Shown here piece by piece: positions 54,704 through 58,182 of a DNA stretch of 64,000 nt. This DNA comes from Paramecium tetraurelia (lineage: Eukaryota; Ciliophora; Oligohymenophorea; Peniculida; Parameciidae), in the NCBI RefSeq assembly GCF_000165425.1, contig NW_001799646.1:4981-68980 (forward strand), read 5' to 3'. The translations under genes were made by a program, and so were the position numbers. The stretch's first letter is position 1; every line of letters begins with the position of its first letter. The notes under the pieces were generated by a model that had not been told where the DNA came from, did no database searches, and saw only the letters and a list, made by a program, of their open reading frames with translations.

Positions 54704-56341
54704 AATGGAAGAAAGAAACCCCTAATCAATTGGTTATTCTAATGGAATAGCGTTAGCAACTGTGCATGGAGGGAACGAACAAAATAAATTACTTCATAAA
54801 ATAAGTGAATCAAGTAGTCCCATGAAGACTGATTTTTAAATAACTTAGAGCAAAGAAATCTACACGGATGAAGAAATGAAAAACTTCACCAAGAGAGGAA
54901 TAATCTCACTGGTGGGAGGAGTAATTTTACATTTAGAATTGGGAACTTTCTATGTTTGGGGCTCAATAAGTAATTAATTAATAATAATTTTGATTAGGTC
55001 CTTATGTCGCTGCTTGGATGAGAGAAAAGGACAAAGAAGTGACTCTAAACTTTATGGCAATCATCTTCCCAATCCTAGGAGTAATAACCATGTCAGTTCT
55101 ATCCTTCGGTATAAAAATAGCTGAAAAAATCGGATTAAAAGTTACAATAGGAATAGGTTCATTCACTATTGCTCTTGCTTTTTTGATAATCTCTTTTATC
55201 TAAGAAATAGGAGGGTTTATAGCAGTCTATTGTATAATGGTTGGAATATCTGGGGGATTACTATATATGCTACCAATTATTTGTGGATGGAGATACTTTC
55301 CTAATAGAAGAGGATTAGTATCAGGGATGACAATAGGTGGATATGGATTTGGATCATTTATCTTCAATTTCGTATGCAAAGCAATAGCAAATCCAAATAA
55401 TCTAAAGCCTACAGTGGTGGAGGTGGAAGATGGAAAAGATGTGAAATACTTTGACAATGAAGTAGGAGACAAAGTGCCATTGATGTTGCAAGTCCTTGCT
55501 GCAAGTTATCTTGGATTGGGAATTATAGCTACGATTATGATCAGGTATCCATCTGAAATAGATCCTGATAAAATGTTGGCTACATTGGAAACTGAAGAAT
55601 TAAAGAAGAGAAAAGAAGGAGCTGATGCACCTCCACCTCCAGTATTACCAGCTCATAAGGAATGTGTTGAGATGTAAGTTATCCTATTTATTCTATAGTG
55701 GTCGAGGTATGAGACATCCAACTTTTATAATTCTCTAATTGATTGTGTTGATGTCATGTACATTTGGTATGTTGATATCTAATTGCTACAAATACTATGG
55801 ATTAGAATTGGGAATAGATGATGCCACATTAACAGCCACTGGTTCTGTTGCAGGAGTTATGAATGGATCATCTAGATTCTTTTGGGCCACTCTAACAGAT
55901 AAGACTTCATATAAATTCACATTTACTCTAATTTCAATCCTCAATCTGGTTACTACATCCATTCTCCCATATAATAAGGATGGTATTGGCTATCTTTTAT
56001 TGATTGCTGTTGTCTACCTTGCTGAAGGAGGATTGTTGGCTACCTATCCTGTTATTTGCGCTAAGATATATGGTAAGAAGATAGGAGGGTTGATGTACGG
56101 GTTCATGTTTTTCTTTGTTGGAGTCTCGAATATGATTGGATATCTACTTTATGCTTTTGCTAGGAAGAAGATTAAATGGGAGGGAGTGTTTTGGATTTGC
56201 TTCGCATTGAATGTTATTGGAATCATTTTGGGGTTGATTCTTAAGGAAACGGGATATGATTGGAGAGATTAGGCAGTGATCGATGCGGAGAAGGAGAGAG
56301 AATTAGAAAATAAGGGATAATTAGCTGCAAATCAAAATTGA
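54704..56341 (+). CDS. MFS transporter, oxalate/formate antiporter (OFA)-like
   Basis: About 525 residues with twelve predicted helices. After an 85-residue head the first helix reads HLELGTFYVWGSISPYVAAW, typical of OFA/monocarboxylate carriers. GGYGFGSFIF and CGWRYFPNRRGLVSG are the helix 4-5 signature. The central loop is charged and proline-rich (GADAPPPPVLPAHKE). The C-terminal half has RFFWATLTDK in loop 8-9. Two introns: 28 nt near 54970 and 25 nt near 55675. The C-terminus is acidic. Substrate unproven, probably a monocarboxylate or dicarboxylate. Stop TGA 56339-56341. Confidence 0.9.
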
Positions 56342-56426: not shown

Positions 56427-58182
56427 ATGGATAGAAATGGAGAATCAATATTCACATCTAATTTTTGGAGAGAAATCAATGAGTAATTTTTCATGGTTCT
56501 GTCTCCTGTCAACATCTCTGATATTAGAGTGTTCAAAAAGAAATGTAATCATTTTATTCATAAAATAGTTTCTAATTATGTAAACTTAAATTGTCATAAA
56601 TTATTAGATAAACTTCTTCGACATAATAACAGATCTAAATTATCTTAATTCAACTTTATCAACTTAAAATAAAGAATTTCATTGCTCTTTCAAGAAAGCT
56701 AATAACATTCAGAACCCATTTAAAATTTAATTGATGAAATGATAGACCAAATTTGTTTTGCTCATCTTATAGAAGGACTACAGCAGACCTAAGATCTCAT
56801 TAAAAATATGTCCCAATTATCAGAATAACAACAATAAATAATATACAATTAAGAAAATTAAATATTGAGTAATTTACACCAAATGATCGATTGTCAAGAT
56901 GAATTGTCTCAACATATACAATAACTTGAATCATAACTTGAACAACTCGATAATTAGAATTCCATTCAATAGTACAATACTATTCCTAATATAATTAGGC
57001 TTGAACAACATGTCAATGAAATCAACAATTCTCTCCTCTTCACTTATTCTTCTTAAATACTTCATGAGAATTCCCTTAAATTAACCAGAACCAGAATCTA
57101 AAATCACAAAGAAGAACTCTCCGCATTGAAGGACCTAATCATATTGCATGAAGATTACCAAGTGGCAGAAAGCATTGGAAAAGCTACTTTCAACGAATAA
57201 AGTAAATTCAACCAACTTATTTTGTAAAGGTAACACCATTACAGTGATCTTCGATAAATATTTGAGTCAAACTTAAATTGATCTCAACTTGGAACACTTT
57301 GCAAATCTACAAAAATTGAGAGAAGTACCTTACGAATTTCCTGATTAATTGCCTGGACTCAGATCTGATGTAAATGGATTGAATTTATGTAGGATGTATT
57401 CGAAATGCAAATGTGTCATTTTTGTAAGTTGATGGTTGATGTTAAAAATCTGAAATAGTGTTCATATAATCATTATTAGATGGGGTTACATGAATACAAT
57501 GAAGATTTATTAATTTGTTAAAGATATTAAATTAATGCAAAGTCTTAATAATCATATTTTTTAGATCTCTATTCTACAAATTACATCATTGAAAGTACTT
57601 TAAATTTTGACATATTATAGATTAATAGATCCAATGCAAAAGATACTTTTGTTTGAAATGTTTGAAGCATGAGTTCGATTCATATGAAACTACTCAATTT
57701 CTTTGGATTTGCCCCTTATGCAAAGTAAATACTACTTATAATCAACATAGGGATTATGTTCTTGTCTCAGATGTTCTAGAAATGAAATTATTTATAAATT
57801 AAAGAGACAATACTTGGAATTGAATGGTAATTTGGAAGATATTTATTAATCATCATATTTTGAAATACTTGTGAATGAAAAACGAAAGCAAATTAAAAAT
57901 ATTCCTATTGAATTTATTAATTTAATTAAAAACAAACAAGAAAACAATGATGATACCTTAACACCAAAAAGTAATTTGAAACATAAGAGATCAATGACCA
58001 AGGGTATGATGAAGAAGAAAATGAAGAAAAATGATTCAGCTTAGAAATCACATAAACTTACACATATAGAGAGTTCCTCATCATCAGTGAAAATTAAGAA
58101 ATCAAAGGAGATTAAAAAGAGATCTGTGTTTCTTAATAACAATCAAAATGATCCTTCTAATCAATAAATCTTTATCTAATGA
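56427..58182 (+). CDS. CDCA7-type zf-4CXXC_R1 zinc-finger protein
   Basis: About 535 residues. The N-terminal 290 form helices and coiled coil (CQDELSQHIQQLESQLEQL). After splicing, the second half holds CHFCKL...QC, then CKRYFCLKCL and WICPLCKGLCSCLRC. That C..C / C..C / W.CP.CKG.C.C..C pattern is the zf-4CXXC_R1 domain of CDCA7 proteins. A lysine-rich tail (MKKKMKKNDSAQKSHK) follows. Introns: 28 nt near 57201 (ends AAG), 23 nt near 57370, 26 nt near 57598 and 26 nt near 57726. In animals and plants CDCA7 partners the HELLS remodeller and binds DNA. Domain call is by eye but distinctive. Confidence 0.72.

Follow-up and report, generated by a model that had tools for sequence, protein, structure and literature searches.

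As judged from profile comparisons, a gene of Paramecium tetraurelia, located in the 64,000-nucleotide stretch of DNA analysed here (the window), encodes a protein whose cysteine-rich finger is homologous to the zf-4CXXC_R1 finger of CDCA7. The gene is one of twelve members of a family, and purifying selection acts on this family in the four gene pairs measured. By its residues, the window protein is not a CDCA7 orthologue in the sense of the published class I definition. We consider the odds slightly better than even (a probability of about 0.55) that it serves in the nucleus as a chromatin adaptor, which would bind DNA or nucleosomes independently of 5-methylcytosine (5mC) and of the HELLS remodeller; a different job in chromatin is probable because this copy lacks the 5mC-reading residues and the genome seemingly lacks the partners.

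The gene, its paralogues and its introns

A search of the genome (69 Mb in 231 contigs), in which the protein of an earlier four-intron gene model was the query, found seven close paralogues and, weakly, three of the four distant ones, whereas the Pfam model of zf-4CXXC_R1, PF10497, found all four distant paralogues directly (C166, C25, C181 and C230), which brings the paralogues in the same genome to eleven. We refer to the eight close genes (C227, which is the window gene, C213, C223, C208, C157, C156, C58 and C138) as subfamily A, and to the four distant ones as subfamily B. The subfamily-A genes can be aligned over their whole length, apart from the divergent N-terminus of C156 and a run of N in C138, and they form four pairs (C227/C213 with 82.1% identity, C223/C208 with 75.8%, C157/C156 with 72.2% and C58/C138 with 70.1%), which would fit ohnologues of the latest whole-genome duplication. 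The subfamily-B proteins share 25.6-27.7% of their aligned residues with the window protein. In an alignment of all twelve sequences the two subfamilies have in common an FWR.IN motif, the pre-finger module AESI.K, the finger and the beginning of the tail. An arrangement of subfamily B in two ohnologue pairs was also considered and rejected, as only C25/C230 is a clear pair (96.7%) and the other comparisons gave 85.5-87.0%.

Compared with its ohnologue C213, the window gene had a dS of 0.60 and a dN/dS of 0.16 overall, with dN/dS values of 0.07 in the 140-residue region comprising finger and tail and 0.19 elsewhere. Full-length dN/dS was 0.10 for C208/C223 (in this pair dS of the domain was saturated), 0.27 for C157/C156 and 0.18 for C58/C138. 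Two copies look irregular: in C138 (L040) CPMCK is followed by a run of N and residues around the finger are altered, and C156 (L041) has the divergent N-terminus mentioned above. These copies may be decaying or misassembled or, in the case of C138, masked.

If TAA and TAG are read as Q, according to the ciliate code, the frame of the window gene is open from the ATG at 56427 to the TGA at 58180-58182 once short GT..AG introns are spliced out (Table 1). The spliced frame carries CHFC, CLKC and WICPLCKGLCSCLRC, thus the cysteine pattern noticed in the preliminary description of this DNA was confirmed; its count of four introns was not, and on comparison with the paralogues we dropped that model in favour of six introns, which is the most likely structure and gives a protein of 533 instead of 550 amino acids. 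Six of the seven other subfamily-A models have an intron of the same phase at the site of intron 1, and all seven have one at the site of intron 2. Four of these six and four of these seven introns, respectively, are not multiples of three, and they break the frame if retained. In the window gene introns 1 and 2 were overlooked at first because each has a length divisible by three, contains no in-frame stop and can be read through.

The two introns inside the finger had been called unusual for their positions. This does not hold: both are common to subfamilies A and B (Table 1), therefore the positions are old and ordinary, and such conservation within the finger argues against chance as the source of the pattern. 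It must be noted that the splice sites of the window gene were inferred from sequence alone; for splicing of subfamily A, protein-guided alignment was used. A reference put together in part by eye served for fitting the four subfamily-B models, whose ends are provisional, and the agreement of their introns leans on that reference. Of the alternative splices in the finger region (ending at 57458, or removing 57517-57542 or 57542-57564) some also leave an open frame, yet they were rejected because they destroy or delete part of what the paralogues keep (the segment between cysteines 2 and 3 or the stretch that follows it). The upstream neighbour on the plus strand (window positions ~54994-56341) looks by eye like a multi-pass membrane transporter of the MFS type.

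Table 1. The gene and its parts in window coordinates, with the observations on which each feature is based.
Feature	Position	Strand	Basis
Gene, seven exons, 533 aa	56427..58182	+	open spliced frame; eight full-length subfamily-A models; dN/dS with C213
N-terminal region, includes introns 1-3	56427..57369	+	12-sequence alignment
Intron 1, 24 nt, multiple of three, stop-less	56545..56568	+	position and phase as in C213, C223, C208, C157, C58, C138
Intron 2, 27 nt, multiple of three, stop-less	56972..56998	+	position and phase matched in 7/7 other subfamily-A models
Intron 3, 28 nt	57202..57229	+	position and phase matched in 8/8 subfamily-A models
Intron 4, 23 nt, directly 5' of the finger	57370..57392	+	in 4/8 subfamily-A models (C227, C213, C223, C208)
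Finger part 1, cysteines 1-3 (CHFCK...QC)	57414..57461	+	invariant cysteines of alignment A1; CDCA7 R274/Q275 sites are K/L
Family-specific stretch between cysteines 3 and 4, 49 residues, split by intron 5	57462..57634	+	alignment A1; CDCA7 has 4 residues
Intron 5, 26 nt, phase 1, five residues ahead of cysteine 4	57595..57620	+	position and phase matched in 12/12 models
Finger part 2, cysteines 4-8 (CKRYFCLKC...WICPLCK)	57635..57724	+	alignment and profile comparisons
Intron 6, 26 nt, phase 0, between CPLCK and GLC	57725..57750	+	matched in 11/12 models; N run in C138
Finger part 3, cysteines 9-11 (CSCLRC)	57757..57774	+	alignment A1, PDB profile search
Conserved tail straight after the finger, predicted helical	57778..57897	+	single-sequence structure model; conservation in alignment A1
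Basic C-terminal tail, 21 K/R vs 7 D/E in 88 residues	57916..58179	+	composition, subfamily-A alignment

The N-terminal region contains an FWR.I(N/H) motif and, by eye, a Q/L-rich, coiled-coil-like stretch, followed by the pre-finger module (AESI.K ... LR) present in both subfamilies; a Pfam scan of the full protein gave no match above its cut-off in this region. The model of the tail was predicted from a single sequence, an 80-aa fragment of exon 7, and it has helices at H10-33 and H35-49 at low confidence (mean pLDDT 69.1). In all eight subfamily-A proteins the basic C-terminal tail carries an element of the form (D/E)(S/T)SS(S/Q)S.K(I/M)K, which is probably nuclear-localisation-like.

The finger compared with CDCA7 and its relatives

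PF10497 proteins carry annotation in ciliate databases. The window protein does not reach the gathering score of this model (22.7 bits): it scored 13.8 bits with six introns, 13.9 with four, and 16.6 when the domain was taken alone. With the full protein PF10497 ranked third, after Myticin-prepro (17.8 bits, cut-off 28.5) and HEAT_EF3_GNC1 (14.8 bits, cut-off 27), both of which were under their own cut-offs and were taken as spurious. Among the five full proteins scanned, the window protein included, C166 (41.8) and C157 (24.5) were above the PF10497 cut-off and C58 (20.4) and C208 (12.9) below it, and in the raw genome four paralogue exon matches exceeded it. When the domain copies were scanned alone, all 11 matched PF10497 at E<=1 (best 2.1e-11), and three also matched Myticin-prepro. 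The PF10497 search with which the preliminary description had proposed to check the domain thus stayed short of the cut-off with the spliced window protein, and the domain copies of the family all matched at E<=1. Because it is itself under the cut-off, we file the window protein as a divergent zf-4CXXC_R1 relative via its paralogues; its full-length homology to the paralogues above the cut-off is backed by the alignment and by the shared introns. In a scan of the 11 domain copies against NCBIfam, Gins15 matched three and RppA two (best 0.0011), and these matches were judged spurious.

Comparison with known structures points in the same direction. When a family profile built from 11 copies was run against all PDB chains, the three CDCA7 entries came out at the top of the 14 sequences found (8yv8 with an E-value of 1.7e-4, 8tle with 2.0e-4 and 8tlk with 5.0e-4), and hhalign gave 94.9% probability for an alignment with the human CDCA7 finger spanning cysteines 5 to 11. 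CDCA7 scored 18.8, 24.2 and 24.7 bits with the profiles of subfamily A, of subfamily B and of both jointly, as compared with best scores of 9.3, 8.7 and 6.1 among 2000 shuffles of CDCA7 scored against each profile. Eleven cysteines are invariant across the 11 aligned domain copies (alignment A1, from which C138 was omitted because of its N run). The core aligned in the PDB search begins after cysteine 4, and the CH.C start was recognized only by eye and in a segment of near-zero score; with the insertion ahead of it, cysteine 4 is identified by way of the alignment. A search of IMG/VR with the domain alignment returned 103 pattern matches, none of which was confirmed.

Homology of the finger, which the PDB profile, hhalign, the shuffle control and the PF10497 matches of the domain copies support, does not make the protein an orthologue, and on this point the CDCA7 relationship proposed in the preliminary description has to be narrowed. 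An orthologue of CDCA7 is defined by 11 cysteines together with three ICF residues, R274, G294 and R304 (PMC10538959, in the part available). According to the accessible text of PMC11343034, R274 and Q275 confer selectivity for hemimethylated CpG, R304 and S330 contact the DNA backbone, and G294 is important for the integrity of the zinc site. The window copy has the cysteines in the order found in CDCA7 (8yv8, 8tle, 8tlk), a CH.C(R/K) start, a core of the form C..CL and W.CP.C...(I/L/F)C.C..C, and predicted helices after the finger. Unlike CDCA7, it has all five of these residues altered (R274 to K, Q275 to L, G294 to R, R304 to E and S330 to L), and in subfamily A the spacing of cysteines 4 and 5 is 5 instead of 8, and that of cysteines 6 and 7 is 17 instead of 20; in subfamily B the C4-C5 spacing is shortened as well. 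The gap between cysteines 3 and 4 measures 49 residues in subfamily A and 55 in subfamily B as opposed to 4 in CDCA7, and the insertion in the window copy amounts to about 45 residues. What had been described as the signature of CDCA7 is therefore a signature from which the cysteines were kept and the ICF residues lost, and by its residues the window protein stands outside class I.

The same sites vary in the rest of the family. In the 11 copies scored by script, R or K occupies the site of G294, and E, D or N that of R304; C138, read by eye, has K and E at these positions. RQ, corresponding to R274-Q275, is kept in four of the twelve genes (C157, L038; C156, L041; C58, L039; and, by eye, C138, L040), whose finger opens with CH(S/Y)CRQ, and S330 is kept in all four subfamily-B copies. 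At the CpG-reading sites the family has RQ, KL, KE or KM.

It is also worth comparing the family with the other zf-4CXXC_R1 classes, as they are described in the part of PMC10538959 available. Class III, the plant IBM1/JMJ24 type, resembles it in that the cysteines are kept, the C4-C5 and C6-C7 spacings are shortened and the ICF residues are lost, but the Pfam scan of five full proteins, the window protein among them, found no JmjC domain, and in subfamily B the C6-C7 spacing is 20. Class II (DDR1-3 and the fungal CDCA7F, the latter mostly without a further annotated domain) likewise has a substituted ICF glycine; unlike in class II, R304 is lost too, and neither DDT nor WHIM1 was found in the same scan. 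ICOPa and ICOPb of the Paramecium ISWI1 complex are, by their description in PMC11789628, comparable as divergent, duplicated chromatin proteins that Pfam does not recognize, but they are reported there with only a WSD motif.

Methylation machinery and remodellers in the genome

The statement in the preliminary description that Paramecium is generally reported to lack 5mC agrees with a published report, according to which 5mC of P. tetraurelia lay under the detection limit of mass spectrometry and bisulfite sequencing, whereas antibody methods had pointed to its presence (PMC6209305, as far as its accessible part goes). In the available text of PMC11441545 a canonical cytosine methyltransferase is described as not identified in ciliates, and in that of PMC7599177 5mC is reported in Oxytricha and Stylonychia. 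Our profile search of the genome gave no PF00145 (cytosine-5 methyltransferase) candidate. The corresponding searches for SNF2 and MT-A70 gave 36 exon matches (30 loci) and 16 exon matches, respectively; these were readily found, so that the search does pick up split genes of such a size in a ciliate. An SRA domain search had no match, and its control likewise matched nowhere.

A HELLS homologue, which the preliminary description had suggested looking for, was not recovered by reciprocal search. The best match of a human HELLS fragment in the genome was C156:41048 (217.6 bits), and in the reverse search against PDB the protein from this locus scored 403.6 bits with SMARCA2/BRG1, as compared with 262.3 for DDM1 and 238.5 for HELLS, i.e. 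it is a BRG1/SMARCA2 homologue. The negative result applies to four SNF2 representatives searched in reverse (L057, L059, L046 and L050); the SNF2 set examined comprised 24 of the 30 loci, L069 and five loci shorter than 200 aa having been omitted. Of the other representatives, one matched CHD4 (248.2 bits, DDM1 181.9), one SRCAP/SWR1 (401.7) and L059 ISWI (261.4, with DDM1 as the next class at 225.0), so that ISWI-class and BRG1-class ATPases are both present in the genome. WHIM1 had no match in the genome. A single DDT match, on C2 and outside the family (G000:C2:743037-743174; 24.8 bits, cut-off 22), marks what may be an accessory protein of ISWI.

CpG is strongly depleted in the window (1-64000), where 470 occurrences were observed against a mean of 1171 in 50 mononucleotide shuffles, i.e. 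0.40 of expectation; the value for GpC was 0.94, and those for TpG and CpA were only 1.06 and 1.10. In the eight subfamily-A coding sequences CpG is depleted at all three codon positions and junctions. Such depletion is odd for a genome without detectable 5mC.

Possible functions of the family

In the chromatin-adaptor reading that we prefer, the finger, the helical tail and the basic C-terminus would serve in the nucleus for binding to DNA or nucleosomes, while the coiled-coil-like N-terminal half would join a partner other than HELLS. The likeliest partner might be another remodeller, of the ISWI or SWI/SNF class, because both classes are present here and plant class II proteins bind ISWI. 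According to PMC11343034, in the part accessible, the cysteine-rich segment of CDCA7 alone showed no detectable DNA binding, which was conferred by a C-terminal extension for which two helices are predicted; the predicted post-finger helices of the window protein may be comparable to this extension. The E at the site of R304 and the L at that of S330 could also mean that DNA binding was lost in the window copy.

It is extremely improbable, and in our view already largely refuted, that the protein is a true CDCA7 orthologue, which recruits a HELLS remodeller to hemimethylated CpG in a 5mC system that was overlooked. The eleven cysteines, CDCA7 as the best structural match, the RQ of four genes and the CpG depletion of the window are in line with such a role, as are the antibody results in Paramecium (PMC6209305) and the 5mC of other ciliates (PMC7599177), but G294 and R304 are absent from all 11 script-scored copies and, by eye, from C138, the searches for PF00145 and for HELLS were negative, 5mC was below detection by two methods (PMC6209305), and the slight excess of TpG and CpA differs from classic 5mC decay. 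The finger could also be viewed as a RING-like cysteine cluster and the protein as a ubiquitin E3 ligase, since TRIM RING chains rank next after CDCA7 in the PDB list (E-values from 0.047 to 0.094), and four of the 11 domain copies match the RING model PF00097 (best 0.024) and three match PHD (best 0.015). This is very unlikely: PF10497 matches all 11 copies with a far better best E-value, CDCA7 outscores the best RING by ~8 bits, and no RING profile is the best zinc-finger match of the window domain (Myticin-prepro 18.4, PF10497 16.6 and RING PF15227 14.6 bits). Moreover, the C.C..C segment after CP.C is invariant in the family, and a RING does not include such a segment.

Two further alternatives keep the finger in chromatin. 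By analogy with plants, the protein may be an accessory subunit of ISWI, a ciliate counterpart of DDR1-3 (class II proteins with zf-4CXXC_R1, DDT and WHIM1) or of ICOPa/b, a rather unlikely possibility: DDR1 and DDR3 bind ISWI orthologues (PMC10538959), ISWI1 and ICOPa/b act in Paramecium genome editing (PMC11789628), both statements being from the accessible parts of these papers, and the genome has an ISWI-class ATPase; as in class II, another residue replaces the ICF glycine. The Pfam scan of five full proteins gave neither DDT nor WHIM, so that the ISWI link is one of analogy, and the lone DDT match of the genome lies elsewhere, with WHIM1 matching nowhere. Retuning of the finger to another DNA mark, e.g. 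6mA hemimethylated at ApT after replication, or germline DNA destined for elimination, is unlikely. It would fit the presence of MT-A70 methyltransferase-type domains, the differences at the CpG-reading sites across the family and the many copies kept, with four clear pairs in subfamily A, and 6mA is reported to occur widely among ciliates, with enrichment at AT in Tetrahymena (PMC7599177, in its available part); the sequence, however, holds no pointer to adenine.

A more far-reaching proposal, to which we give a distinctly low probability, is that Paramecium kept and expanded the CDCA7 finger after losing 5mC, the DNMTs and HELLS, and that of the subfamilies with RQ, KL, KE and KM at least one senses another DNA state linked to replication or development (hemimethylated 6mA at ApT or elimination-marked germline DNA) and signals it to another remodeller.

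We found no description of a Paramecium zf-4CXXC_R1 family in the open-access literature searched; in the available text of PMC10538959 the mentions of Paramecium concern PRC2 or references, and CDCA7 orthologues are reported there as absent from the available SAR genomes except one. When the genome was searched by a BLAST-type method for the human finger, no member of the family was matched, which may be why surveys pass over it; such an empty answer is unreliable, and introns interrupt the finger. The domain family itself was already known, so the surprise is moderate. It has been argued that loss of methylated DNA makes the CDCA7 finger readily dispensable (PMC11343034, in the part available). 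Twelve diverged relatives of CDCA7 persist in a ciliate genome in which neither a C5 methyltransferase nor HELLS was detected, and they provide a testable system for asking what the finger reads without 5mC, and whether its ancestral role went beyond hemimethylation.
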